Source of the DNA: Streptomyces deccanensis
GTDB taxonomy: Bacteria > Actinomycetota > Actinomycetes > Streptomycetales > Streptomycetaceae
Reading direction: 5' to 3'
Assembly: GCF_022385335.1 (NCBI RefSeq)
Contig: NZ_CP092431.1
Span: 6,262,001 to 6,326,000, forward strand
Length of the DNA: 64,000 nucleotides
The notes under the pieces are model-generated. The model was not told where the DNA came from and did not search any database. It worked only from the letters and a program-made list of their open reading frames with translations. The translations under genes and the position numbers were made by a program. Below, in pieces: positions 20,120-39,099 of this stretch (the stretch's first letter is position 1; every line of letters starts with the position of its first letter).

Positions 20120-20423
20120 CGGGAAGCTGTTCTCTTCCTTGGTGGTCAGGCCCTCGCACTGGGATTGCCGTCCCGGCGGGGGCCGTTGTCTGTCTGCGGT
20201 TGTGTTGCGCCGAGCGTAGGGCAGGTGACCGCTCCCGAATCCAGCCGAGTGGGCGATGTTCACCCGCGAGGGTGAGGCGGCCTGCCGGGCGGGAGGAGGG
20301 GTGGGGTTTGGTGGGGTTCTTTCTCTCCCGGGGTTCTTGGGGAAAGACCGTCCGCCGCACCGGAGCGCACATTTCCGGGTTCCGGTAGTACTCGCACCTC
20401 ACGGCTCGGAGAGGATGTCTGCC
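20120..20423. other. Divergent intergenic region
   Basis: These 304 bases separate the HTH gene (minus) from the NIPSNAP gene (plus). The HTH frame continues to 20263 but its composition there does not look coding. No promoter with two good hexamers and no repeat was recognised. Confidence 0.5.
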
Positions 20424-20732: not shown

Positions 20733-23700
20733 TCACATGGGGTCGAGCGACAGCAGATGCTGCCGCCGTTCCTCGTGCGTGAGGGTGCGGAAGACCCTTC
20801 CCCGGGCGGTCGCCTCCAGCCCGTCGTAGTCCGGCTCCGCCCGCCACACCCGCGCCGTCCCGTCGGCCGATGCTGTGAGCAGTCGTGCACCGTCCGGGGA
20901 CCAGGACACGGAGGTCACCTTGTCCTGGTGCACGCCGACTACGGCGATTTCCTTGAGGGTGGAGGCGGACCAGACCCGTACGGTGCCGTCGTCGGAGGCC
21001 GTGGCGATGTACCGGCCGTCGGGTGACCAGGCGACGGCGCGAAGCCGCCCTTCGTGCCCCTTGAGCGCGTCGATGCGCCGTCCGGTGGCGGCATCCCACA
21101 CGGCGGCCGTCCAATCGGCCGAAGCGGTGGCGATCCTCGTCTCGTCCGGTGACCAGGCCACGTCCTCGACGTAGTTCTCGTGGCCGCGTAACACGGTGAA
21201 CTGACGCCCCTCCTCGATGTCCCAGAGCCGGCACGTACGGTCGTCAGAACTGCTGGCGAGCCGCCGCCCGCTCGGCGACCAGGCCAAGCGCCCCACCCAG
21301 TCCTGGTGTTCCGTCAGTTTCAGCAGCTGGGTGCCATCGCGTGCGGACAGGACACACACGGCGCCGTCGTGACCACCGGTGGCGATCCGGCCGCCGTCCG
21401 GGGACCATGCGCACCCCTCGACGACCTCGCCCTGTCGTTCGAACAGTGTGCCGCCGTGTCCGTCGACAATCCGGAACTGGCCGTTGTTGGTGCCGAACGC
21501 GAGCCGTTCGCCCTGCGGAGCCCAGGCGACGGCCCAGACCCGGTCCGTCACCTCGGTCACCGGTCCGGCCACGACGCCGGTGTCCGAGTCCCACACACGC
21601 ACGGTGCCGTCGTCCGAGGCCGTGGCGAAACGGCTGCCGTCACCGGACCAGGCAGCCTGGTTCACCGGGCGCCGGTGTCCGTCGGCCATGACGGTCTCGG
21701 CACCACGCGGACGCAGGTCCCACACCATGCCGGTGCCGTCGCTGGAGCTGGTGGCGAGCGCGGTCCCGCAGGGTGCCCAGGTGACGCCCCACACCGTGTC
21801 GGCGTGGCCACGCAGCACGGCCAGGACCTTGGCGTCCGCTGTGTCCACGATGCGCACTGTGCGATCGGAAGAGGCACTGGCCAGCATGCGGCCGTCCGGC
21901 GACCAGGCCAGGTTCCAGACGTAGTCGGTGTGTCCGCGCAGCAACAGGCGCAGTTCGCCGGTCCCGGCATCCCAGATGCGGGCGGTGTGGTCCCCGGAGC
22001 CGGTGGCGATGTGCCGCCCGTCCGGCGACCAGGCGATGCCCTCGACGAAGTCCGAGTGCCCGGTGAGCGTGGTGACCGCCTCCCCTGTCGCCAGGTCCCA
22101 GACGATCGCGCTCTGATCGTGGGAGGCGGAGGCGAGGCGGCTGCTGTCCGGTGACCACGCCACGCCCCAGATGTCTTCGCAGTGCCCACGTAGTTCGTGC
22201 GCGAGCCGCCCGGTATCGGCTTCCCAGACCCGTACGACCCGGTCCTTGGAACTTGCGGCGACATGTCTGCCGTCCGGCGACCAGGCCACCTGTCTGCTGA
22301 CGTCCTCGGCACCGGTGAGCAGCCCGACCGGCTCCCCTGAGGCGGCGTCCCAGATACGGACGACCCGGTCACGGCCGACGGTGGCCAGTCTCGCCGAGTC
22401 CGGTGACCAGGCGACGGACTCGACCATGACGCCGTCGCACGGCAGAACCAGCAACGGGCGTCCGGAGAGCGCGTCGTAGACGCGGCCGGTGCCGTCCCTG
22501 GAGGCCGTGGCCAGCATGCGGCCGTCCGGAGACCAGGCGATGTGCCGAACGGTGTCCGTGTGCCCGTCGAGCCGCGAGCGGAGGTGACTCGCCGCCAGCG
22601 CCGCCATCAGCCCACGCCTGGCAGAGGGCGTGGGTGCGCACTCGTCCAGCGCGGCGAGCGAGAGCAGCAGGGAACGTTCCGGTTCGCTCTGGGCGCTCAG
22701 CAGAACCTGACGGCCGATGCTGTCGGAGATCCTGCTCAGGAAAGTCAGGTCACGGCGCTGCGAGGACTCGACGAGCGCGCGGGCGGCTGCGGACGCCTGC
22801 CCGGATTCCTCCAGCGCTTCGAGCCAGCGCCGGGCCGCGGTGAGACGTTCCCCGGTGAGGAGATAGTCGTCACTTCGTCCGGCCCGCTCCCAGTCGGCCG
22901 CCCACCGCTCCAGTTCGGCGCGCTCACGGAGTCGTTCGGCCCGGGCCTCGACCTCCTGCCGCAACGGGGCCCACTGGCGGAACAGCGCCTCGTGGGTGAC
23001 CTGCGCGAACGGCTCACCGTCGGTCGCGGAACCGCGACCCGTGGCATCGGTGCGCAACAACCGGGCCTCGACGAAGGCGTCGACGACAAGGCGGTCCCGT
23101 TCGTCGAGTTCGGACAACGGCACATGGCGACGGGCCACGTCCTGGCCCTCGACGGTGACGAACTTGAGCAGGACCCGGAGGACGGAGTCGATGCCCAGGC
23201 CCGCACCGAGCCCGGTCACGGTGTTGTCCGCCTGGCGCGCGAGCGCGCCGGGCACTCCGCCGAGCCGCTGGTACAGCTCCTCGGTCACCGTCCCGCCGGG
23301 GCCAGCGGCGAAGAACAACTCCTGTAGGAGATAGGCGAGCAGCGGAAGCGCGTCGTCCGTCCCGGTCTCGCCGACGATCGAGTCGACGACACCGGACTCG
23401 AAGCGGAGCCCGACGAGGGCGCCGGGTCGCTCAACGGCTTCGACGAGCTGGGCCCGGCCCAGAGTTCCGATGGCGATGGGATGTTGGAGCAGCTCTGCTT
23501 GCCCCGTGCCGAGGAGCCTGCCGAGCAGATCCACACGGAGGGTGACCAGGACCCGAACCGCCGGGTCCTGGTCCACACAGTTGCGAAGCGCTTCCAGGAA
23601 CTGGGCTCGTTCCCGCTCGCCCGCCAGGGTGACGACCTCCTCGAACTGGTCGATTACGAGGAGTATCCGCCGGAACCGCCCACCACGCAGCCGCGCCAAC

Positions 23701-24275
23701 TCGGCTCGCAGCGCGTCCGGCCCCAGGCGAAGCCTGCGCAGCACGGCGCTCGCCGGTTCCTGTCCCTCCGAGGCAGCCGCCAGCGCCCCGGCGAGGGCGC
23801 CCAGCGGGCCGGCGCCCGGGGCGAAGGCCGGCACGACGGTCCAACGGCGTTGCCGAAGCCGGGGCATCACCCCGGCTCGGACCAGCGAGGACTTTCCGCT
23901 TCCGGAGGCCCCGACCAGCACCAGAAACCGTTCCGCCGGGCTGGCGGCAGTGGCATGCAGCCGACGCGTCAGTTCGGCCGCCTGCGCCTCGCGGCCGAAG
24001 AAGACGGCCGCCTCGTCCTCGTCGAACGCGTCGAGCCCCGGGTAGGGAACCCTGTCACGCGGCCACTCGATCCGCGGGGGCGCGGGATTCTCCAGCCGGT
24101 GGGCGACGACCTGCCCGACCACAAGCGCCAGGATCAGTACGCCGATGGCCGGAACGGAGAAGCGCTGAATGGCCTCCAGCGCCCAGGGAGCGTTGTCGGT
24201 ACTGGTCGCGTAGTTGGTGGCGATCCCGAGCAAGCAGGCGACCAGCGCCAGCAGGACCTGGAGCACGACCTGCAT
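20733..24275 (-). CDS. Membrane-anchored nSTAND NTPase with 14 WD40 repeats
   Basis: This 1180-aa signalling NTPase starts at ATG 24275 with GAGGA 7 bases before it; an ATG at 24287 lacks a ribosome site. Two hydrophobic segments (about 3-18 and 36-58) anchor it. The motif YPGLDAF plus VFFGRE marks the nSTAND1 class, with P-loop GASGSGKSS at 122-130 and Walker B VIDQFEE at 207-213. From about residue 565 come 14 WD40 units, each carrying a version of AWSPDG and ATASxDG, enough for two seven-bladed propellers. STAND proteins act as ligand-triggered switches, some in immunity. The output domain is not obvious here. Confidence 0.85.
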   Translation of the reverse strand: MQVVLQVLLALVACLLGIATNYATSTDNAPWALEAIQRFSVPAIGVLILALVVGQVVAHRLENPAPPRIEWPRDRVPYPGLDAFDEDEAAVFFGREAQAAELTRRLHATAASPAERFLVLVGASGSGKSSLVRAGVMPRLRQRRWTVVPAFAPGAGPLGALAGALAAASEGQEPASAVLRRLRLGPDALRAELARLRGGRFRRILLVIDQFEEVVTLAGERERAQFLEALRNCVDQDPAVRVLVTLRVDLLGRLLGTGQAELLQHPIAIGTLGRAQLVEAVERPGALVGLRFESGVVDSIVGETGTDDALPLLAYLLQELFFAAGPGGTVTEELYQRLGGVPGALARQADNTVTGLGAGLGIDSVLRVLLKFVTVEGQDVARRHVPLSELDERDRLVVDAFVEARLLRTDATGRGSATDGEPFAQVTHEALFRQWAPLRQEVEARAERLRERAELERWAADWERAGRSDDYLLTGERLTAARRWLEALEESGQASAAARALVESSQRRDLTFLSRISDSIGRQVLLSAQSEPERSLLLSLAALDECAPTPSARRGLMAALAASHLRSRLDGHTDTVRHIAWSPDGRMLATASRDGTGRVYDALSGRPLLVLPCDGVMVESVAWSPDSARLATVGRDRVVRIWDAASGEPVGLLTGAEDVSRQVAWSPDGRHVAASSKDRVVRVWEADTGRLAHELRGHCEDIWGVAWSPDSSRLASASHDQSAIVWDLATGEAVTTLTGHSDFVEGIAWSPDGRHIATGSGDHTARIWDAGTGELRLLLRGHTDYVWNLAWSPDGRMLASASSDRTVRIVDTADAKVLAVLRGHADTVWGVTWAPCGTALATSSSDGTGMVWDLRPRGAETVMADGHRRPVNQAAWSGDGSRFATASDDGTVRVWDSDTGVVAGPVTEVTDRVWAVAWAPQGERLAFGTNNGQFRIVDGHGGTLFERQGEVVEGCAWSPDGGRIATGGHDGAVCVLSARDGTQLLKLTEHQDWVGRLAWSPSGRRLASSSDDRTCRLWDIEEGRQFTVLRGHENYVEDVAWSPDETRIATASADWTAAVWDAATGRRIDALKGHEGRLRAVAWSPDGRYIATASDDGTVRVWSASTLKEIAVVGVHQDKVTSVSWSPDGARLLTASADGTARVWRAEPDYDGLEATARGRVFRTLTHEERRQHLLSLDPM

Positions 24276-24418
24276 ACGGTTCCTCATCGAGTACCGCCCA
24301 CCCCCGTCGTACCAGCCCCGAAGACCGGCATCGCGTCACCCGTTCATGACCATCTTCTGGGGGCTCGCGGCGGTGTTCAACGGCGCGTACGGGTTTCGGC
24401 CATCACCAGGCGATCGGC

Positions 24419-26367: not shown

Positions 26368-29300
26368 TCAGGCGGCGTCTTCGATGATGTCGAGCGGCGG
26401 GAGGTGCTTGACGATCTCGATGGTCGCGAGGCTCACCGTCACGACGCGCATGAGCAGCTTGACGATGTACTCCGGGTCGTCGGACCAATCGTTGGGGTCG
26501 TTGACGATGCCGGACTTTGGGTCGGTCTTCACCTGGTACCGGTCGATGATCCACTCGATCGCCGAACGGGCGCCGAGCTGGTACTCGTACGCCTCCTCCG
26601 GGATGTTCTCCAGCGTGACGTGGTTGTTGTAGACGATCCGCGTCCGGTCCTGGACACCCTTCACCTTCGGGATCTTCATCTTCGTCACCCGCAACAGCTC
26701 GTCCTGGGGCATGTCCGGACGGGTGTTGGTGAGCGTCCTCACGATGCCGCCGAAGGGCTTCGCGGACTCGTAGTTGATGTGCAGCTCGGAGAGCTGGCGG
26801 CCGGCCTCGGCGAACGCCCGGAAGGCGCGCACCTTCGGGATACGCGGCAGGGACTTCTTCAGGTCGGCGGCGTAGGCCTCGCGGTAGGCGGGGGAGTGGA
26901 GGAGGCCGTAGACGTAGAAGAATATGTCGTCCGTCGTCAGGTCGGGGGCCGTGTCCGCGTACGTCTTGCGGTACGCGGCGAGGGTGGCGCTCGTGATGTT
27001 GTCGATGCGCTCGTAGGCGGCGCCTCCGTCTTCGTCGCCGAAGTCGAAGCCGCCTTCTACGGCGAGCTCGCGGTAGGTGTAGCGGGCGAAGTGCGGGCCC
27101 ACGCTCTTGGTGCCGACGGCGTGGAGGTCGGGGATCGCGTCCGTCATCAACACCGAGAAGGGTTCTTCGGAGCCGGTGCCGGTGATGTAGAAACCGAAGT
27201 TCTGGTGGTCCGGCGACGGGAATAGCTGTGGCATCTTGCCAGGACGGTGGTTGAGATCTCGGTCGAAATACACGGCTTGGCGGCTGAAGGGGCGATACAG
27301 GCCCGTGGTGACGCGTTCCGGGGAGTACTCCACACGTTTGCCCTGCGCCAGCTTCGCGATCAGGCTCGACGACCAGCTGATTCGTTCCGCATCGCGGTCG
27401 ATGTAGCGGTCCGCGTCGGCAACTTGAGGCTGCGTAACGCCTGAAACCTTGCAGTGCTCTTGAAAACCAGTCACCTGCTCGTTGTAGAAGTCCACCATCG
27501 ACTCAACGTTCTCGCGGAGCCGCTGCTCGGAGAAGTTGTAAACCCAGGGGTCGCGATTGGTCTGGAGCCCGGCTGAGTGAAGCGCGAAGATGGCTCGGCC
27601 CCGAGCGGCGGTCTCGCTGATAGGAGCGAACGTCGCGAACCGCTCGTCCCTCTGGTTGATCCAGTCACCGTCCGCGTTCGGTGTGATCCGCTCCCACTCC
27701 ACCGTCTCCAGGCTCTGCCCGGCGATGAGGCCGAGCTTCTCCTCGCGGCTGCGGTAGTCCCCGATGTCCCGGTAGAACAGCCCGCGCGGCGCATCCGTGC
27801 GGCCGCCCTTGACCAGGACGATCACGGCGACCGTGTTGCGGCTGCCGGAACCGAAGATCTTGCCGCCCTCCTTGCGGGACAGCTCACCGGCCGTTCGCTG
27901 GTTGCCGCGCAGGTTGTAGCAGTACACCGCGTCGAACTCGTCCGTCAGGCACTTGCGGACGCCGTCCGCCGTGTTGCCGTCGATGTAGCCGCCGTTGGAG
28001 ACGAACGCCACGACGCCCTCGTCCTTGATGCGGTCCGAGGCCCAGCGGAAGGCGCGCAGGTAGGAGTCGTAGAGGGAGTTCTTGTTCTTCGCCGTCGACC
28101 TGGCCGCGTAGGTCTCCTGGATACGGTCGTCCAGGGCCTCGTACTTGATGTTCTGGTTGTCGTCGTTCTGGCTGTCCTGCCCCACCGAGTACGGCGGATT
28201 CCCCAGCACGACCCGGATGTCCTGCCCCATTTGCTTCCGCGCCCGCTCGCTGTTCCCCGACAGCACGTCCCCGAACAGCCGCCCCTCCTCGGACTCCGCG
28301 AGCTGGAACGTGTCCGTCAGGACGATGCCCTCGAACGGCACGTACGCGTCGGCCCCGGTGTCAGCCGCGTCCGCCCTGGCCTCCGCGTACAGGTCGTGGA
28401 ACGCCGCCTCGATGTTGACCGCCGCGATGTAGTACGCCAGCAGCACGATCTCGTTCGCGTGCAGTTCACGCGTGTACTTGCGCAGCAGGTCCGCCTGTTT
28501 GATCAGGCCGGACTGGAGGAGCCGTACGACGAACGTGCCCGTGCCCGTGAACGGATCGAGTACGTGTACGTCCTCGTCGGACAAAGACCGGCCGAAGTGT
28601 CGTCCGAGCGCCTGGTCGGCCGAGCGCAGGATGAAGTCGACGACCTCGGTCGGTGTGTATACGATGCCGAGCGCGTCCGCGGTCTTGGGCAGCGCCGTCT
28701 TGAAGAACTTCTCGTACAGCTCCGTGATGACGCGCTGGCGGCCCTCGTGGTCGGTGATGCCCTCCGCGCGCACCCGTACCGACTCGTAGAACCCCTCAAG
28801 GGTCTTGGCCTCCGCCGAGATCGTGTCGTCGTCCAGGACGTCCAGCATCCGCTGCATCGCCTGTGAGACGGGGTTGTGGTCGGCGAACGCGTAGTCCTGG
28901 AACAGCGCGTCGAAGACCGGCTTGGTGATGAGGTGCTGGGCGAGCATGTCGATGGCGTCGGAGTCGGTGACACCAGGGTTTATGTTCGAGCGCAGTTCCT
29001 CGACGAACTCACTGAAGGCCGCCGCCTTGTGGGGGACCGTCAGGCCCGCCCTGATGCGGGCGACATGCCGCTCCGCGATCAGTGCGATGTCCTTGGCCCA
29101 CTGCTCCCAGTAGGTGCGCTCACCGACCTTGTCGACGATCCGGGCGTAGATGGCCGTGCGCCACGCCTCGTCGAACTCCAGACGGTCCTGGACGTACTGG
29201 GCGGACTGCCGCTCCTTGTCCTTCTTGGCCTGGGCGCTTTCCTGGGTGCTGCTGCCGTCCCGGTCGCCGACCGATTCGTCCCCGGCGCCGATCGTGCCGA

Positions 29301-31308
29301 TGCCGATGGTGTTCGGGGCCTTCTTGTTGAGCTCGATCTGGTTGACGGACGCGTTGAAACGGTCGTCGTGGGCGCGCAGGGCCTGGAGGACCTGCCAGAC
29401 GGTCTTGAAGCGGCGGTTGTCCGCCAGGGCCTCCTCCGGGGACATTCCGGCGGGGACGGCGACGGGCAGGATGATGTAGCCGTAGCGCTTGTCCGGTGCC
29501 AGGCGCATCACGCGGCCGACGGACTGCACGACGTCGACGACGGAGTTGCGCGGCTGAAGAAAGAGGACTGCGTCCAGGTTCGGGACGTCGACGCCCTCGG
29601 ACAGGCAGCGGGCGTTGGACAGGATGCGGGCGTTGTTCGGGCCCGGGTCCTGCTTGAGCCAATCAAGGAGGTCGTTGCGGCGGAGTGTGTTGAACGTGCC
29701 GTCGATGTGCTGGACATCGCAGTTCAGCAGCTCGTCGTCCGCGTCCTGGTACGAGGAGACGATCTCGTTGAAGTGGTTGGCGACGGCCTGGGAGTCCTTG
29801 ATGGAGCGGGCGAAGGCGACCGCCCGGCGCATCGGCTCCTCGCCGGGCTCGAAGTGGGTGCCGTCGCCGAAGGTGCCGGTGCGCTTCGCCAGGCCGTTCC
29901 AACAGCCGATGATCTTGGCGGCGTCGTCGAGGTTCAGCTCGGGGCCGCCGGCCGCCAGACCCTGCTGGTAGGACTTGGCGACCACGTCCTGGTCGACGGT
30001 GAGGATGAGTACCCGATAGTCGGTGAGCAGGCCCTGTTCGACGGCCTTGCCGAAGCCGAGACGGTGGAACTCCGGGCCGTACAGGCTCTCGTCGTCCATC
30101 GAGGCCAGGACGGCGGAGGCGTCCTTGGCGTCCGCCTTGGTGTCCTCGTTGTAGATCCTCGGGGTCGCCGTCATGTAGAGGCGGCGGGTGGCGCGTACGA
30201 CGTCGTTGTCATGGACCCGGACGAAGTTCGACTCGTCGTGCCCCGCGAGCGTGACGCCCGTGGTCCGGTGCGCCTCGTCGCACAGAATCAGGTCGAAGGA
30301 GTCGAGTCCCATCTCCTGCGCCTTGGCGATCGTGCCGATCGACTGGTAGGTGGAGAAGACCACCGTCAGGCCGGGACCGGCGGGCGGCTCGGTCCCGTCG
30401 CCTTCGACCTGGGCGAGCAGGCGGGCGGGGTCCGTGGTGGCGGGCAGCGCCAGGTCATGCGTGGCCATGTCCAGGTCGTCGGCGTCGACCTGGCCCCGGG
30501 AGACCTTGGCGTCGGAGCAGACCGCGAAGGCCCGCAGCGGGGTCTCGGCTTCCGACCTCCACTCCCGCAAAGTCTGCGAGAGCAGCGCGATGGAGGGCAC
30601 GAGGAAGAGGACCCGGGTGTGCTCGCCCAGTCCGCCGGCGGCCCGCTCGGCCGCCAACCGCTCCACGATTTTCAGGCCCGTGAACGTCTTGCCGGTGCCG
30701 CAGGCCATGATCAGCTTGCCGCGCTCGTGCTCCGCGAAGCCCTCGAACACCGCGTCGATGGCCTCGCGCTGGTGCGCGCGGGGAGACTTCTTGCCCCGCA
30801 AGGAGAGCTCCACCCCGCTTGCCTCGCCGCTCGCGGGCAGTCGCCACTCCACCCGGCTCGCGGCGATCTCCGACAGACCGAGCCGCTGTACGGGGGGCTG
30901 CTGGCCGTACAGGGCCGCCTCGGCGTTCGGGCCCCATTTATCCGTCGTCGAGATGATCAGACGGCGGGCGAAGCCGCCCTGTCCGGAGGCGGTGAAGAAG
31001 GAGTCGATGTCAGGCTTCTGGACCGTGTGATCCGCTTCGTAGCACTTGCACTGGATCGCCCAGAGGGCGCCGGTCTCCCGCTCCTGGGCCACCAGATCGA
31101 TACCGAGATCCTTCTGGCTACCGGCCGTGTGGCTACCGGCCGCGCCCGGCCACTCGCCGTACATCCACACACGGCTGAACTGCTCGCTCCACACCGGGTC
31201 CGTACTGAGAAAGCGCACCATGAGTCGCTCGAAGGCGGTCCCGAGTTCTCGATTGGTCCTCGACTTCTCGCGAATCACCCGAAGCACGTCATGCACGGTG
31301 GTGGACAC
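26368..31308 (-). CDS. Type ISP restriction-modification enzyme (single chain)
   Basis: This 1646-aa protein combines nuclease, translocase, methylase and target recognition, as in LlaGI/LlaBIII. An Mrr-like nuclease lies at the N-terminus (GIDL with D71, then QCK with K88). The SF2 helicase has Walker A ACGTGKT at 202-208, DEAH at 344-347 and MTATPR near 379-384. A coupler follows. The N6-adenine methylase has YTPTEVVDF at 884-892, DPFTGTG at 918-924 and NPPY at 1037-1040. The C-terminal about 450 residues are the recognition region. It starts at GTG 31308. It should methylate and cut its target as one polypeptide; the site cannot be predicted. No frameshift was seen. Confidence 0.9.
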   Translation of the reverse strand: MSTTVHDVLRVIREKSRTNRELGTAFERLMVRFLSTDPVWSEQFSRVWMYGEWPGAAGSHTAGSQKDLGIDLVAQERETGALWAIQCKCYEADHTVQKPDIDSFFTASGQGGFARRLIISTTDKWGPNAEAALYGQQPPVQRLGLSEIAASRVEWRLPASGEASGVELSLRGKKSPRAHQREAIDAVFEGFAEHERGKLIMACGTGKTFTGLKIVERLAAERAAGGLGEHTRVLFLVPSIALLSQTLREWRSEAETPLRAFAVCSDAKVSRGQVDADDLDMATHDLALPATTDPARLLAQVEGDGTEPPAGPGLTVVFSTYQSIGTIAKAQEMGLDSFDLILCDEAHRTTGVTLAGHDESNFVRVHDNDVVRATRRLYMTATPRIYNEDTKADAKDASAVLASMDDESLYGPEFHRLGFGKAVEQGLLTDYRVLILTVDQDVVAKSYQQGLAAGGPELNLDDAAKIIGCWNGLAKRTGTFGDGTHFEPGEEPMRRAVAFARSIKDSQAVANHFNEIVSSYQDADDELLNCDVQHIDGTFNTLRRNDLLDWLKQDPGPNNARILSNARCLSEGVDVPNLDAVLFLQPRNSVVDVVQSVGRVMRLAPDKRYGYIILPVAVPAGMSPEEALADNRRFKTVWQVLQALRAHDDRFNASVNQIELNKKAPNTIGIGTIGAGDESVGDRDGSSTQESAQAKKDKERQSAQYVQDRLEFDEAWRTAIYARIVDKVGERTYWEQWAKDIALIAERHVARIRAGLTVPHKAAAFSEFVEELRSNINPGVTDSDAIDMLAQHLITKPVFDALFQDYAFADHNPVSQAMQRMLDVLDDDTISAEAKTLEGFYESVRVRAEGITDHEGRQRVITELYEKFFKTALPKTADALGIVYTPTEVVDFILRSADQALGRHFGRSLSDEDVHVLDPFTGTGTFVVRLLQSGLIKQADLLRKYTRELHANEIVLLAYYIAAVNIEAAFHDLYAEARADAADTGADAYVPFEGIVLTDTFQLAESEEGRLFGDVLSGNSERARKQMGQDIRVVLGNPPYSVGQDSQNDDNQNIKYEALDDRIQETYAARSTAKNKNSLYDSYLRAFRWASDRIKDEGVVAFVSNGGYIDGNTADGVRKCLTDEFDAVYCYNLRGNQRTAGELSRKEGGKIFGSGSRNTVAVIVLVKGGRTDAPRGLFYRDIGDYRSREEKLGLIAGQSLETVEWERITPNADGDWINQRDERFATFAPISETAARGRAIFALHSAGLQTNRDPWVYNFSEQRLRENVESMVDFYNEQVTGFQEHCKVSGVTQPQVADADRYIDRDAERISWSSSLIAKLAQGKRVEYSPERVTTGLYRPFSRQAVYFDRDLNHRPGKMPQLFPSPDHQNFGFYITGTGSEEPFSVLMTDAIPDLHAVGTKSVGPHFARYTYRELAVEGGFDFGDEDGGAAYERIDNITSATLAAYRKTYADTAPDLTTDDIFFYVYGLLHSPAYREAYAADLKKSLPRIPKVRAFRAFAEAGRQLSELHINYESAKPFGGIVRTLTNTRPDMPQDELLRVTKMKIPKVKGVQDRTRIVYNNHVTLENIPEEAYEYQLGARSAIEWIIDRYQVKTDPKSGIVNDPNDWSDDPEYIVKLLMRVVTVSLATIEIVKHLPPLDIIEDAA

Positions 31309-31540: not shown

Positions 31541-33571
31541 TCACTGTGTGACCTCGGCGACGCCGGTACTCCGAGGGCCCGGAACCGTCCCGTCGGCGAC
31601 CAGTTCCGCCACCGCGTCGCCGTGGTTGCGGACCAGGTAGTCCATGGCGTGCTCGGTGGAGGACTGGTACTCCAGCTGTTGCCCGTAGAAGCGGAGCCGA
31701 GCCTCGCAGTCCTGGACGAGTTCGCCCCAGGTGCGGACCCAGATCCGGTACGTCGGCTGGTTCAGGGCGCATCCGGGGGGATTGTGAGGCTGGTGGGACA
31801 GCTCGCGCAGCGTGTCCGTCATGTCGTTTCCGACCAGCCAGAAGTCCCATGTGGTGCGGGTGTCCCGGAACCGGTCGTCCTTCCGGACGGCCTGTGCGTA
31901 GCTGCTGAGCTGCTCGAACTCGCCCGATCCCAGGGTGAGGCCGGGGCGTTTGAGTTCGACCACCAGGTGGTGCCGTTCGTCATGCCGGTGCCGGGACGCT
32001 CTCGACAGCATGAGGTCGACAATCCCCTGGCGCCCGTCGGGCCGGAGCACGGGAGGGCCCGCCGGCTGCTCGCGGCCCAGCAGGTGGCAGTGCTTCCGCA
32101 GAACCTCGGTGAGGCTTCTATCGCTCACATGCAGGCCGTACTCCTCGCCGAAGATCCAGCACTCGTTCTCCAGGATGCGGTGGAGTTCGGAGCGCTCCTT
32201 CACGCGCTTCTTGGCGTGGGGGTCGAAGACGAGGTGCTCCAGAGCCGCCAGGAAGTCCAGCCGACTGGTCGCGGCCGTGGAGGCCTTGAGCAGAGCTGAC
32301 AAGGGAGTGCGGTCGAGGAGTCGGTTGAGCTGCTCCCGTTCCTGCTTGGAAAGGCTGAACAGCTCCTCGGCGATGCGCAGGACGTCCGAGGGCTCGTGGG
32401 CGAGCACGGACCGAAGCAGGGCGAACGTGGTCCTGCGCGTTCCGGTGGACTTGGGCAGGTGACGGAAGACGGTCGTGGCCACCGCGTCGAACGTCTCGCG
32501 CTCGGTGCGTTCGCGTGCGTCGGCGGGTTGCTCCGCGTACGGGTAGATGCCTTCCCGACGCCATTGCGCGACCTGTTCCCGTCGTCGTTCGTCGACGCGT
32601 GCGCGGAAGTGAGCCTTGAGCCGGTCACGGGCCGTGGTGAGGACTTCGGCCAGCGGTCCGTGCGGCGCCCAGTCGGTGAAGGCGAGGTCTTCGGAGTCGA
32701 CGTCGTCGAAGCCGGACCAGCTGAGATGCGCCGTGAACTCGAAGCCCGGGGCCTGGATGCCCGGCTTGAGCTGCCCTCGCGACATGCCCTCGCCGTCGCA
32801 GAGGAAGAGCGCGCGGGTGACCGGCTTGCGCCACTCGACCACCTTCAGGCGTGCGGGGTCGCCCCTCAGGCCGCCCCGAGCGGCGGGGGAAGGCAGGTCG
32901 TAGTCGCTGACGTGCGACTGCTCGGCAGCCGGGTCGAGGTCCTGGCCGTCGTACTCGATCCGGACGTCCGGGTACTTCTCCAGGTACGTGGCGAAGGCCG
33001 TGGTGAGCGATGAGCGGGCCCGGTCCTCCGCGAGGATGTCCAACTGCTCGTCCCCGCCGAACGCCTCGAAGAGCGTGCCGGTCGGATCGTCGGTGGGTTC
33101 CGGGTCGCCGATGTCGAACTCGTCCATCGAGCGCCGGTCCGCCTCTATCACCAACTGCTGTCGGCCCCCGAGCGCGTCGCTGACGCTGGTCCAGCGGACC
33201 TGGATGCCGAGGGCGAAGGCACGCACCCGGCCTCGCCCGTTCTTGCCGTGCAGGGCGCGCTTCTTCACCGGGCTGCCCTGCGCGCGCTTCTTCCAGGAGG
33301 CGCCGATCGGCCGGAAGTACTCCTCGCAGTGCTCGGCCGACATCCCGCTGCCGTCGTCCTGGACGCTGACCCGATCCACGCCGCCCAGGTCGTTGCGCTC
33401 CAGCGTGACGACGACGTGCCCGGCGTCGGCGTCTACGCTGTTCCAGATCAGCTCCTCGACCGCGCCGATCGGATCGCGCAGCCGCGCCAGCTCGGCGACG
33501 TGTTCCCGACTGGTCTCCAGCCGCACCTTCACCATGACGTCGGTTTCTCCGGTTCTTTCATGTTCTGCCAT
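31541..33571 (-). CDS. GHKL (MORC/MutL-like) ATPase fused to a PD-(D/E)xK nuclease
   Basis: This 676-aa protein starts at ATG 33571 with AGGG close upstream. The GHKL ATPase has DPIGAVEELIWNSVDADA (E40, N44), QDDGSGM (D72) and GKNGRGR (109-115). After a middle domain, the C-terminal part carries IFGEEYGLHVSD, GIVDLML (D519) and VVELKRP (E539, K541), a restriction-type nuclease core resembling Shedu/DUF4263 proteins. Prokaryotic MORC-like ATPases are known to cluster with restriction-modification genes, and here the type ISP gene follows on the same strand after 232 bases. It probably belongs to the same defence locus. Confidence 0.8.
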   Translation of the reverse strand: MAEHERTGETDVMVKVRLETSREHVAELARLRDPIGAVEELIWNSVDADAGHVVVTLERNDLGGVDRVSVQDDGSGMSAEHCEEYFRPIGASWKKRAQGSPVKKRALHGKNGRGRVRAFALGIQVRWTSVSDALGGRQQLVIEADRRSMDEFDIGDPEPTDDPTGTLFEAFGGDEQLDILAEDRARSSLTTAFATYLEKYPDVRIEYDGQDLDPAAEQSHVSDYDLPSPAARGGLRGDPARLKVVEWRKPVTRALFLCDGEGMSRGQLKPGIQAPGFEFTAHLSWSGFDDVDSEDLAFTDWAPHGPLAEVLTTARDRLKAHFRARVDERRREQVAQWRREGIYPYAEQPADARERTERETFDAVATTVFRHLPKSTGTRRTTFALLRSVLAHEPSDVLRIAEELFSLSKQEREQLNRLLDRTPLSALLKASTAATSRLDFLAALEHLVFDPHAKKRVKERSELHRILENECWIFGEEYGLHVSDRSLTEVLRKHCHLLGREQPAGPPVLRPDGRQGIVDLMLSRASRHRHDERHHLVVELKRPGLTLGSGEFEQLSSYAQAVRKDDRFRDTRTTWDFWLVGNDMTDTLRELSHQPHNPPGCALNQPTYRIWVRTWGELVQDCEARLRFYGQQLEYQSSTEHAMDYLVRNHGDAVAELVADGTVPGPRSTGVAEVTQ

Positions 33572-33691
33572 GCATCCCTGATCGAGGGCAAAGTCTGCCC
33601 TCTCCCGTGGGTTTGACGAGGGAAATCGCCGCGAGATCACTCTTGGTACCCTGCCGCCTCCTAATGAGAGCATCTGTTCGAAGAGGTGTGA

Positions 33692-34532: not shown

Positions 34533-37361
34533 TCAGTACAGGGTCGGCACCTCGCCGCCCTCCGCCCGCGTCAGCGTGACTCCCGCCAGACCGCGTAGCC
34601 GGCGTTCCGCCACGGCGGTCAGTTCGTCGGTGGTCGGCGGGGTCTGCCCCAGGCCGATGGCGTAGCGGGCGGGGGTCGTGGTGAAGGGGCGGGGCCAGGC
34701 GTGGCAGTCGGGGGCCAGTTCGGCGAGGTCCGTGATCAGGGCCCGCATCCTGCCCCGGACCCGGCCCTCGTCAGCGCTTCCGCCCCGGGCGCCCTCCACC
34801 GTCACGATCGCCCAGGCCGCGTGGCGGCGGTGGAGCGGGGGAGGGGCGAGGAGGGCGGGGAACGAGCCGTCTTCCTCCAGCAACTCCCAGGCGCGGAACA
34901 GCTCTTGGGTGATGAGGTCGCGCATGCCCTCCGTGACCTGGTCCGTGCAGGAACGGACCGGGGCGGAGGGGGTGGCGACAGTGAGGGCCCCGGCGGCGAC
35001 GCCGTCGAGTTCTCCCACCGGCTCGCGCCAGTCCCACGCCGCCCACGTCGCGAAGAAGTGCCGGAGGAGGGCCGCCGGGGGCAGGTCGCCTGCCTCGTTC
35101 ACCGTGCGGGCCGCCAGCACGGACCACGCCAGGCCCGGCAGCCCGCCGAACGGTGCCGAGTCCAGGCCCCGGGCCCTCGCCCACGCCTTGACCTGCCGGG
35201 CCAGCCGGGCCAGCCGGGCGAACGCCGGTCCGTGGGTGCCCACCGAGGTGAACACCGCCTCCGCGTCGCTCACCGCGCTGAGCGCGATCGCCGCCGCCTC
35301 GCCCAGTTCGGCCCGCCGGGCCACCGCCTCGACGGGATCCATCGCGCCGGTCGCCACCACCGCCAGGTCGACGTCCAGGCCGTCCAGCCGCAGCCGGAGG
35401 CCGGGTACACGGGCTCCGACCACCTCGCGCATGCCGCCCGCCCCGGGCAGGGACTCGGTCAACTGCGCCTGTATGGAGGGAAGTTCGACCGAGCCGGGCA
35501 GCGCCGCCACCAGGTCCAGATCCGCGCCGGGCAGCGCACAGCCCATCCGCCGCGAGCCGACGACGTGCACGACACCGTCGGGGAGCGCGTCCGCCACGAG
35601 GCGTGCGACCCGGTCGGCCACGGCGAGGTCGGTGCCGCTGTCCTCACCGACCCCTTCAACCTCGTACGGCGTCGGCTCTTCCCACCACCGCACCTCTCCC
35701 GTCCCCAGGCTCACCGTCGCCCGCACCCGCATCGGCTCGTCCCCGCGCCTCGACAGCAGTGCCAGCTCGCCGACCCTGGCCGACAGGGGCGTGAGCCGGG
35801 CCGCGCAGGCCGTCGCCAACGTGTTCGGGTCGGTGGTGCGGCCCAGGCTCAGATGCGGGGTGAAGCCCTCGTGCCGGCCGCGACAGCGCGGGAAGTGGCG
35901 TACGAGGGTGCCGTGCAGGTCGGCCCACGGTCCCTCGCCGGCCGCCGCCGGGTCGAGCCAGACCGTCGCGTCGTCCCGGTGGCCGAACCAATGCACGCCC
36001 TCCAGCCGGGCGTCGAACGGGACCGTCCCAGTCGTCAGCGCCGACGCGAGCACCGCGGCCGCCTCGTCGAAGGCGTGTTCCGGTGCGAAGCCGAAGAGGA
36101 CGTTCACATGCGGGGGCCAGCGGTGGATCTGCGGGTCGTGGTCGCGGCGGATCTCCTGGAGCGGCGGCCACAGCTCCTCGGGCGGCAGCCACGCCAGCGC
36201 CGTACGGGCCGTCGGCCGCACGTCGAGGCGCGCGGGGGTGCCTGTGGCCGGGGTGTCCGTGCCCGGGGCGTCCGGGGTCACCTCCGCCCGCACCCCGTAG
36301 TGGTCCGAGATGTGCAGCCCCTCCGGCGTCGGCGCGTCTCCGTAGAGCTCGGCGCTTGCCACCCGGAGCCCCTCCCCGCGCACGAGCACCCGGTCCAGCC
36401 GGGACGCCCGTCCCGACAGGGACGAGACCGCGGCCAGCGGATTCGCGACCGGGTCGAAGGTCGGGGTCGCGTCGGCGGGGCCGTGCGTCTCGCTCCACGC
36501 GTCCCGCATACCGAGGGTCGTCTGTGGCGTGTCACCGCCGTCGTTGAAGTCGCCCAGCACCAGCAGATCGGCGTCCAGACCCGCCAACCCCTCGGCGACA
36601 CGCGCCAGTTCGGCGGCCCGGCGGCCGGCGCCGTCCGCGGAGTGGTCACTGCTCAGGTGGGTCCCCGCCACGACGAGGGGGCGTGCGCCGGTCTCCACGA
36701 CCACGGCCGTCACCGCCTTGTGCGGGCCCAGCGTGTGGAACGCCGCCTCGCGGACCGGCAACCGGCTGAGGAGGAGCAGACCGCACGCGTCCACGTCCCG
36801 TCCGCGCGGGTCCGTCCCCAGCGTCCAGCCGTCCCGCACCCAGGGCTCGCGCAGCAGCATCGTCAGCAGCTCCGCCTCGACCTCCTGCAACGCGATCACG
36901 TCCACGTCGGCGTCGCGCAGCGCCCGCATCAGCAGGGGTCTGCGCCGGGCGCTGTCGATGAGGTCGGCGTCGTAGCGGTCCCAGAGGGTGTTCCAGGTCA
37001 GCACCCGTACGGATGCCGAGGCGAGTCCTCGCGGTGCGCGCGTGGGGGTCCAGTGCTCCCCGTCCCACGTGTGCGGCGTGCGCGCCGTGAAGAAGGGCGC
37101 CCGGAGCAGACGCGCTTCCCGTACGCGCCCCGCGTCCGTGGCGTCGATCCGGTCCACGCCCGTGGAGCGGTCCCAGACCAGCTCGCCGTCGGCCTCGAAG
37201 AACAGCACCCGGTGCCAGGGGATCTCGCCGCCGGGCACGAACGCGGGCAGCGGGACCCGCTTGGGCGCGGCGTTCCGTTGCAGGACGCCGAGCACGAAGC
37301 GGGCCGGGTCGAAGCGCGCGTCCCAGCGCACCCGGTGGTAGATCTCCTCGCTCGTCCGCAC
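34533..37361 (-). CDS. Multidomain RNA repair protein: DUF504, EEP, 2H phosphoesterase, nucleotidyltransferase
   Basis: This 942-aa protein starts at GTG 37361 with GAGGA 7 bases upstream. Residues 1-75 form DUF504/MJ1316, predicted to bind RNA cyclic ends. An endonuclease/exonuclease/phosphatase domain spans about 118-360 (N124, E160, GDFND 270-274, SDH 352-354). A 2H phosphoesterase spans about 385-560 (HVN 418-420, HLS 503-505). A poly(A)-polymerase-like nucleotidyltransferase begins near 580 (GS 602-603, D614, D616, D665) with a helical partner domain. It would trim, open and extend broken RNA ends. It lies 19 bases after the ligase-kinase gene, in one operon. Confidence 0.85.
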
Positions 37362-37380
37362 GGTTCCTCAGCCCTCTTCC

Positions 37381-39099
37381 TCAGTGCTCGTCCTCTATGG
37401 TCCCGCTCGCCCCCACGTACCAGGTGCGGTGCGCGTCGCCCGGATACGGCGGGGCGAAGCGGCGCAGCTGGGCGGTGAGCACGTCCGGCGGCACGGGGTG
37501 CTCGCGGCGGCCGTTGCGGCGGACCAGCTCGTCCTCGTCGACCAGGACCACGGCGTGGGTGACCAGGGCGTCGCGGCGCTGGGCGACCGCGTGGACCAGC
37601 GAGCGCTGCTGGTGCGTGAGCGAGGTGGCGTCCCACACCGTGGTCCCGCCGGCGGCCAGCGCCCCGTCCAGCCGGTCGAGCCCCGCGCGCAGCACGTCCG
37701 CGTTGGCGCGCTGGTCGGCCCGGTCGCCGCGCGCCTCGCGCAGATCGTCCAGCGACACATACGCGTCCGCACCCGTGAGCCCTCGCGCGAACGTGCTCTT
37801 GCCGCTGCCGGCCGGACCCACCAGCTGGACCAGCCTCGGAAAGGCCCCCGACCGCCACCGCCACGTCGCCGCGACGGCCTCGCCCGTGGGCCCGCCTCCG
37901 CCCCCGGCGAACCCGCCCCCACGCCCAGTGAACCCACCGATGCGCCCCCGCGCGTACGCCTCCCGTGCCTCGGCCCGGCACCGTACGGCCGCTTCGGTCG
38001 GCAGTTCGGCGAACGCCTCCGCCAAGGCCCCCTCGTCGAGGCCCCTTACCTCCTCGGCGTGCAGCGCCGACCACTCGACCTGCTCGCGGGCCTCGTCCGT
38101 GGCCGCCGTGGCGCGGGCGACCGCGTGCAGCAGCCCGAGATCGGCGGCGAGGGAGAGCCGCGCCAGGCCGGTGGGGCGGTCCTCGTCCGGGTACGGCCGG
38201 TGCAACGCGGAGTGCAGCCCCACGAGGTCGGCCACCCGACGGGCGAGCGGCATGCCCACGGCCCCGGCGAGCCGCGCGGCCACCCGGGCCCGCCGGCCGC
38301 CCGGGGCGTGCCCGTGCAGCAGCGCGGCCAGGACGCCGGCGAGCCGCTCGTCCCCGGTGCGCCCCTCCGCGTCGAAGCGGGCCACCGCCTCCCCGTCCCC
38401 CTCGCCGGGCAGTCCGACGGCCTTCGCCAGCGCGTCGGCGTCCGCGGGCGCGCCGGAGCGCACCGCCCACAGCGGCGCACGCGCCCCCAGCCCGTTCTCC
38501 ACGACGGCCGCGTGCATCCAGTGGGTGTCCGTCCGCACGTGCCCGGCCCGCACCCACTTGGCGACGCGCGCGCCGAACTCGTCCGCGGCGAAACCGTCCA
38601 CGACCCGGACGACGTACCCCTCCTGCCGCCCGAGGTCCAGCCGCAGCGCGCGCAGCGCCCTCTCGTCGAACACGCCCCGCCACAGCACGCGCGGCACGGG
38701 GATCCCGAGACCGCGCAGCAGGTCCACCGTCCGGTCCCAGCCCAGGCAGCGTCCGTCCGCGTCCCACACCGAGAAGCCGTAGAACCAGCTGTCCAGGTCG
38801 TCGTAGGCGAGGGAGTGGCGGGCGAACATGTTCTCGCCGCACACCCGCCAGCCCGGCGGGACGGCGTGGCCGATCCGGGCCTGGAGCGCCTTGACCCAGG
38901 TACGGGAGGGGTGGTGCGCGGAGTCCAGTGAGCGGGCGTGCAGGCCGTCGCGGTACAGCGTGGTGTTCTCGCCGTCGAGTTTCTCGGACACGACGACCTC
39001 GCGGCCGCGCAGGCCGGACAGGTCGGTGACCCGCAGATCGTCGGCGGTCGCGCCGGGGGACCAGGGCAGATGCCGGGTCCGCGGATAGTGCGTGCGCAT
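37381..39099 (-). CDS. RNA ligase fused to polynucleotide kinase
   Basis: This 572-aa protein seals and phosphorylates RNA. The N-terminal Rnl2-like ligase has motif I EKLDGEN with nucleophile K40, CGENMFARHS near 88-96, motif IV QEGYVVRV (E160) and motif V AKWVR (K181). A helical spacer covers about 200-390, followed by a glycine-rich stretch. The C-terminal kinase has P-loop GPAGSGKST at 428-436, then SLDDLREARGD. It starts at ATG 39099 with GGGGGA upstream. It is the first gene of the RNA-repair pair. An insertion sequence sits 88 bases upstream. Confidence 0.87.
   Translation of the reverse strand: MRTHYPRTRHLPWSPGATADDLRVTDLSGLRGREVVVSEKLDGENTTLYRDGLHARSLDSAHHPSRTWVKALQARIGHAVPPGWRVCGENMFARHSLAYDDLDSWFYGFSVWDADGRCLGWDRTVDLLRGLGIPVPRVLWRGVFDERALRALRLDLGRQEGYVVRVVDGFAADEFGARVAKWVRAGHVRTDTHWMHAAVVENGLGARAPLWAVRSGAPADADALAKAVGLPGEGDGEAVARFDAEGRTGDERLAGVLAALLHGHAPGGRRARVAARLAGAVGMPLARRVADLVGLHSALHRPYPDEDRPTGLARLSLAADLGLLHAVARATAATDEAREQVEWSALHAEEVRGLDEGALAEAFAELPTEAAVRCRAEAREAYARGRIGGFTGRGGGFAGGGGGPTGEAVAATWRWRSGAFPRLVQLVGPAGSGKSTFARGLTGADAYVSLDDLREARGDRADQRANADVLRAGLDRLDGALAAGGTTVWDATSLTHQQRSLVHAVAQRRDALVTHAVVLVDEDELVRRNGRREHPVPPDVLTAQLRRFAPPYPGDAHRTWYVGASGTIEDEH

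Follow-up and report, generated by a model that had tools for sequence, protein, structure and literature searches.

What would an actinobacterium do with two adjacent genes, one joining an RNA ligase to a polynucleotide kinase and the other ending in a eukaryotic-type poly(A) polymerase (PAP)? The question is raised by a locus of Streptomyces deccanensis within a 64,000-nucleotide stretch of contig NZ_CP092431.1 (positions 6,262,001 to 6,326,000; hereafter the window), which is part of a 10.1-Mb single-contig genome. Gene A (37381-39099, minus strand) encodes a 572-residue fusion of an RNA ligase, a degenerate HD domain and a polynucleotide kinase, while gene B (34533-37361, minus strand) encodes a 942-residue protein with MJ1316, EEP, 2H and PAP domains, as judged from open reading frames (ORFs) and Pfam matches. 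Our analysis indicates that the pair is genuine and conserved and makes sense as a unit; its general kind is ordinary, its parts are unusual. We think it probable that the two genes heal and seal broken RNA as one repair operon, gene B having displaced the HD domain in 3'-end healing.

A sequence-only reading of the window had described these genes as a two-gene cassette with 19-base spacing and at least six enzyme or binding modules. Both ORFs are indeed found as described on the minus strand, separated by 19 nucleotides (37362-37380), with a GAGG sequence ahead of the GTG start of gene B. Five modules give Pfam matches above the curated cut-off, the polymerase is recovered above cut-off through PAP_central, and the degenerate HD domain adds a seventh. 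The profile searches which that reading had proposed as a check thus matched both the ligase and DUF504 (MJ1316).

Domain content and active sites of the two proteins

The ligase domain of gene A (residues 1-200; 38500-39099, minus strand) matches RNA_ligase (PF09414) over residues 33-183, with an E-value of 3.3e-33 and 115.7 bits against a cut-off of 27. The expected K40, E160 and K181, corresponding to the KxDG lysine, the motif IV glutamate and the motif V lysine, are kept in all 34 aligned rows that cover this domain. In a tblastn search of plasmids, residues 1-204 were 58.8% identical to a gene on plasmid MP1 of Deinococcus radiodurans, which is followed there by genes for a PARG-type protein and an HD-kinase. 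We identify this gene as DRB0100 because of its gene order and because K40 corresponds to the lysine mutated in published work (PMC1997131; PMC11833690; here and below, the available part of these texts). High identity over the whole 200-residue domain, including K40, places the gene A ligase in the DRB0100 type. The same D. radiodurans record also contains a 342-residue 'RNA ligase (ATP)', presumably DraRnl, whose weak match (2e-4, against 58.8% identity to DRB0100) argues against it as the closest ligase. Nor is Rnl2 proper supported in that place: with E-values of 1 or less allowed, a profile of the ligase domain reached no solved RNA ligase, and a single DNA ligase (0.37) lies among chance matches. 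The term 'Rnl2-like' used in the sequence-only reading therefore holds as a broad Pfam label at most, the domain itself being of the DRB0100 type. In jumbo phages the ligase domain occurs alone, at 38-52% identity (20 listed of 32 records).

At the other end of gene A, the P-loop kinase domain (residues 419-572; 37384-37845, minus strand) matches AAA_33 above cut-off over residues 423-551 (E = 1.9e-21), and its P-loop, catalytic Asp/Arg, lid Arg and fold identify it as a polynucleotide kinase. Fold matches to gene A (VIA-align) cover almost the kinase alone, and include two fungal kinases, 9drz and 9d8a, which we take to be Trl1 kinases.

Between ligase and kinase, residues about 205-400 (37900-38487, minus strand) are without a Pfam match, and AlphaFold2 models them as a mostly confident, all-helical domain. 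Profile-profile alignment of 65 gene A proteins with nine HD-kinases (hhalign) related this region to the HD domain of HD-polynucleotide kinases (HD-Pnk) over 149 columns, with a probability of 93 and an E-value of 3.5e-7; the best E-value was 0.13 in 20 column shuffles and 0.055 over five gene B regions used as controls. The HD-kinase of D. taeanensis aligns across the homologous region in several gene A proteins, matching one from Embleya over its residues 12-405 (33%), one from Nonomuraea over 117-405, and three from Streptomyces over 89-406, 100-406 and 105-406. The metal site, however, is incomplete. Ligands were compared with eight of the nine HD-kinases, the Vibrio one being dropped as its annotated start excludes the N-terminal ligands. 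Five ligands are common to all eight, and the complete set occurs in none of the 65 gene A proteins (H43 in 0, H51 in 0, H81 in 53, D82 in 7 and H107 in 3), the motif pair H81 and D82 occurring together in 6. Gene A is thus not an active HD-Pnk by its metal ligands, and an intact HD phosphatase is ruled out. The ligase-kinase fusion reported earlier contains both modules, with a dead HD domain sitting between them that had been missed.

Gene B, whose AlphaFold2 model has a mean pLDDT (predicted local distance difference test) of 85.8, was compared across the best 80 of 226 loci found, all titled as actinobacteria. Identity across these 80 is 56-87% (best segment), and the closest proteins among them are from Streptomyces, led by S. 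caniscabiei at 87%. Residue counts below cover 89 gene B proteins, 80 of them with and nine without a 2H domain; 2H motifs are counted over the former.

The N-terminal MJ1316 domain (residues 1-65; 37167-37361, minus strand) matches PF04457 with an E-value of 9.9e-19 (68.3 bits, cut-off 26.3), and W13, D14, R29 and P48-R51 are kept in 89/89 proteins. Its profile found no solved relative. We know of no assay of MJ1316 binding to 2',3'-cyclic phosphate ends, and no paper matching 'DUF504' turned up in the literature searched. By citation, MJ1316 is said to bind RNA ends of this type (PMC6514570, available part), consistent with a predicted role as reader of cyclic-phosphate ends. The EEP nuclease/phosphatase domain follows (residues 115-365; 36267-37019, minus strand), with Exo_endo_phos above cut-off over residues 121-354 (E = 9.8e-20). 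Its catalytic residues, the N, E, H, DxN and DH of the family, are invariant (N124, E160, H235, D271, N273, D353 and H354 in 89/89).

The 2H phosphoesterase (residues 393-542; 35736-36185, minus strand) matches 2_5_RNA_ligase2 (PF13563) with an E-value of 2.2e-31 (109.4 bits, cut-off 27), and its profile reaches B. subtilis 2d4g as the sole solved structure. All three of the earlier DUF504, EEP and 2H assignments are hence supported above cut-off. The two 2H motifs read HVN and HLS in the window; the second, H503-x-S/T, is kept in 80/80 proteins that have the domain, and the first is non-canonical, being HxN in 75/80 and HxT in 5/80. The statement that all key residues are present accordingly needs correction at this first motif, which is H-V-N in place of H-x-T/S.

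The remainder of gene B (residues 564-942; 34536-35672, minus strand) has the catalytic, central and C-terminal parts of a eukaryotic-type PAP. PAP_central matches above cut-off (residues 722-782, E = 5.7e-9), NTP_transf_2 falls below its cut-off, and the three catalytic aspartates are kept almost throughout (D614 in 89/89, D616 in 87/89 and D665 in 88/89). Together with the three-part fold, this identifies a complete canonical PAP, a type of enzyme described elsewhere in animals and fungi; the poly(A)-polymerase-like nucleotidyltransferase noted from the sequence is present, as merely the front part of it. The nucleotide site differs. Yeast PAP uses Y224 and N226 there, and the corresponding positions of gene B are D734 (88/89) and A736 (89/89). 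In the available text of one paper, Streptomyces is said to be without PAP I and to tail RNA by PNPase (PMC5872136), and one strain with an acquired pcnB has been reported (PMC8208693); a complete eukaryotic-type PAP can now be placed in this genus.

Linkage, distribution and natural variants

One survey contig of the 80 starts inside gene B, leaving 79 loci usable for the upstream gene. In 75 of these, gene A lies directly upstream of gene B on the same strand, with a gap of -14 to +50 nucleotides (median -1). Across 246 Streptomyces genomes, gene A was found in 49 and any part of gene B in 93. Among the matches listed, 51 genomes have an EEP- or PAP-containing gene B, the other 42 matching through the 2H part; both genes are present in 48 genomes, gene A alone in one (a fragmented draft) and gene B alone in three (Fisher p = 3e-46, kinship ignored). 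In an even draw of 396 genomes from across the phylum, the same three genomes contain both proteins at full length, and three more match gene A by one domain. Pairwise distances of the two proteins also agree (r = 0.88 over 63 pairs; best of 500 permutations 0.15). The co-occurrence check suggested in the sequence-only reading therefore comes out in favour of the pair.

Mobile elements were also searched for gene B. A phage home was not supported: a search of 50,697 phage records gave no hit, and two peptide patterns likewise found nothing in IMG/VR. Plasmid records gave eight matches, of which three cover at least 80% of its length, each on a replicon larger than 3 Mb.

Natural variants of gene B are informative about its parts. 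In ten Streptomyces gene B proteins, the two segments that match lie too close together to accommodate a 2H domain; all eight of these candidates that were examined are without 2H and have MJ1316, EEP and PAP_central above cut-off. Nine such proteins form one branch among 2H-bearing forms (SH-aLRT, an approximate likelihood-ratio branch support, of 92, under the tool's mark of 95), and all nine retain intact EEP, PAP-triad and MJ1316 residues. Gene A, or a gene A end at a contig edge, adjoins in 10/10, and separate 2H proteins were present in 9/9 genomes searched. Since it is absent from one clade, the 2H domain looks dispensable, and the 3' step that cannot be missed may fall to the EEP domain; of all parts of gene B, MJ1316-EEP varies least. 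This natural loss makes the question of which domain heals 3' ends directly testable.

A few further arrangements were seen. MJ1316 and 2H stand side by side outside the pair in 16/246 Streptomyces genomes (among the matches listed), one of which has the pair too, and a two-domain MJ1316-2H protein lies on a plasmid (L102:4298-5158, plus strand); this architecture presumably resembles animal LENG9. In genome G411, gene A is split into two pieces (C1:8842244-8842948 and C1:6010961-6011695), the ligase part lying ~2.8 Mb from the kinase-bearing part, which still adjoins gene B. Locus L121 (genome G593) holds a seemingly decayed copy with a truncated gene A and broken pieces of gene B.

A predicted repair pathway and its alternatives

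Among the closest known systems are the D. radiodurans genes DRB0100-DRB0099-DRB0098, which encode a ligase, PARG and an HD-polynucleotide kinase: besides the ligase with its shared K40, the kinase is 43% identical to that of gene A and the HD domain homologous. Unlike in gene A, the Deinococcus ligase and HD-Pnk are separate genes flanking PARG, and the HD domain is intact; no relative of gene B was found in the 24.6-kb D. radiodurans stretch. Biochemically, 3'-end healing by the HD domain has been assigned to Runella HD-Pnk. Published work shows 5'-kinase activity for DRB0098 and adenylyltransferase activity for DRB0100 (PMC1997131). Large plasmids (L104-L108) from Miltoncostaea, Vibrio, a cyanobacterium, Pseudomonas and Variovorax also encode HD-polynucleotide kinases, in differing surroundings; an annotated RNA ligase is nearby in Variovorax alone.

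For gene B, a plasmid protein of Calothrix brevissima NIES-22 (NIES22_69490) has the same MJ1316-EEP-2H-PAP order at 30.5% identity over 80%. It differs in retaining the Tyr/Asn pair found in eukaryotic PAPs, and the 22-kb Calothrix stretch contained no relative of gene A. Eukaryotic PAP gamma and Pap1, for their part, have the Tyr/Asn pair that Asp734 and Ala736 replace, and the PAP of gene B is part of a fusion. The fungal and plant tRNA ligase Trl1 is a ligase-kinase-2H protein, and the pair has the same three activities by domain; unlike Trl1, it is divided over two proteins, adds MJ1316, EEP and PAP, and sometimes misses the 2H domain. The pair also fits the RNA repair syntax that Burroughs and Aravind reportedly set out in 2016, combining ligase, kinase, phosphoesterases and nucleotidyltransferase, with MJ1316 as end reader. 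That survey is cited in PMC6514570, and its themes appear in the available part of PMC7824862, where ligase, kinase, 2H and nucleotidyltransferase are a described repair set in jumbo phages.

On this basis, we propose that MJ1316 would grip a broken RNA end bearing a 2',3'-cyclic phosphate, and that the 2H domain, the EEP domain or both would open the cyclic phosphate and remove the phosphate to leave a 3'-OH. The PAP domain may then restore any nucleotides missing from the broken end. Of the two gene A activities, the kinase would phosphorylate the 5'-OH and the ligase would seal the RNA. An EEP phosphatase acting before a PAP has precedent, because ANGEL2 removes 3' phosphates ahead of mitochondrial polyadenylation by MTPAP (PMC9525292, available part). 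Gene A itself may have arisen by joining a DRB0100-like ligase to a DRB0098-like HD-Pnk. With the Deinococcus genes, 3' ends would be healed by the HD domain, a role unproven for DRB0098; in actinobacteria the HD domain is dead, and the second protein contributes two further phosphoesterase folds along with an end reader and a polymerase. The dead phosphoesterase would stay as a linker or RNA-binding scaffold, gene B having taken over 3'-end healing. The simplest account is that the pair heals and seals RNA ends; it would amount to one healing enzyme displacing another within a parts set described for RNA repair (PMC7824862; PMC6514570). If correct, two proteins would make up a full RNA repair pathway with separable steps in about one fifth of sampled Streptomyces, going by the distribution of gene A. 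It would also suggest what ligases of the DRB0100 family do; in the available text, they adenylylate and had no substrate found (PMC1997131).

Several observations weigh against this proposal. RtcB is present in 12/12 genomes tested (G397 and G481 appear to be the same one), which provides a second repair route; the pair would then act on ends outside the reach of RtcB. In vitro, DRB0100 ligated neither DNA nor RNA, and HD mutations of DRB0098 left its 3'-phosphatase signal undiminished, as far as the available text reports (PMC1997131). The AlphaFold2 model of the ligase is poor (mean pLDDT ~51 over residues 1-200). The HD-kinase of D. taeanensis matches the window's own gene A over 252-406 alone, the kinase part, and some HD residues persist across gene A (H81 as counted above, and a further histidine, H139, in 46/65). 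Within gene B, the EEP domain is nearest to TDP2, which acts on 5' adducts; ANGEL2 is not among its 22 profile matches and is ruled out as the nearest relative. A PAP aspartate is substituted in a few gene B proteins (of 80, two with D616N and one with D665G), no accompanying change was noticed in the clade that lost 2H, and one genome has MJ1316-EEP alone, at 402 residues. Gene B is found without gene A in the genomes of 4/79 loci (one with a weak kinase match), and no toxin or nuclease gene emerged as a conserved neighbour in the 80 loci (flanks up to 10 kb).

More tentatively, the pair may perform a predicted patch-and-seal reaction, in which the remodelled PAP, with Asp and Ala for Tyr and Asn, would resynthesise lost bases without a template before the DRB0100-type ligase seals; here the dead HD domain would be a docking element and MJ1316-EEP the essential 3' reader and eraser. 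We consider this possible rather than likely. To our knowledge, neither template-independent patch-and-seal repair of RNA nor a bacterial role for a canonical PAP has been described before.

Gene B might instead prepare RNA for disposal, healing and tailing cyclic-phosphate fragments for PNPase or another exonuclease, with gene A repairing a separate or smaller set. The four loci whose genomes have gene B without gene A would fit this, as would the same order of steps in ANGEL2 and MTPAP (PMC9525292) and the decay-promoting effect of bacterial tails in a genus said to be without PAP I (PMC5872136). It leaves unexplained, however, why a protein whose product is destroyed should be in near-strict operon linkage with a ligase-kinase, and we regard it as unlikely. 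The substrate might also be DNA, the ligase-kinase acting on DNA breaks as first proposed for DRB0098 and DRB0100: the Deinococcus operon is radiation-induced, DRB0098 phosphorylates DNA (PMC1997131), and the relative closest to the EEP domain, TDP2, is a DNA 5'-end enzyme. Yet MJ1316, 2H and PAP are RNA modules by family, and no DNA ligation by DRB0100 was seen in the available account (PMC1997131), making a role on DNA quite improbable.

A housekeeping function, such as the cutting and rejoining of maturing tRNA or rRNA, would recall the ligase-kinase-2H set of fungal tRNA splicing, and the fungal kinases among the fold matches, presumably from Trl1, point the same way. The patchy distribution of the pair, with gene A in a minority of Streptomyces genomes and full-length A and B in three of 396 across the phylum, speaks against a housekeeping step, which we hold to be very improbable. 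For the favoured repair operon, a patchy distribution is compatible with a trigger in stress or conflict.

Genomic neighbourhood

The sequence-only reading had inferred a role in conflict from nuclease and toxin genes beside the pair. Next to gene B lies a GHKL ATPase gene (31541-33673, minus strand), weakly similar, below cut-off, to BbrUII/HgiDII-type restriction enzymes, and beyond it a Type ISP restriction-modification enzyme (26368-31308, minus strand; PADLOC, 2202 bits). Within flanks of up to 10 kb, the Type ISP enzyme is found in 0/80 related loci and the ATPase in 1/80. A conserved link to these neighbours, and with it the argument for conflict, is thus unsupported. Gene A aside, no neighbour family was found in more than 16/80 loci, and several of the families reaching 16 consist of ribosomal genes from closely related genomes; these counts rest on rough ORF calling, which recovered gene A itself in only part of the loci, and many loci are truncated by contig ends. 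Against the 2023 PADLOC list, gene A gave weak P-loop matches (0.017 and 0.019) and gene B none, absence from that list being no evidence against a defence role.

More widely, almost 30 kb (12730-42270) separate the EF-G gene from ORFs from 42270 on that we recognised by eye, and take to be the S10 ribosomal operon; the interval holds defence-like genes and is possibly an insertion hot spot. It includes an nSTAND1 NTPase-WD40 fusion (20733-24287, minus strand), a possible defence or signalling protein, and a putative transposase of family NF041680 (39278-40783). The Streptomyces small RNA scr4677 also maps there (20120-20367, minus strand; Rfam RF02673, 206.8 bits).

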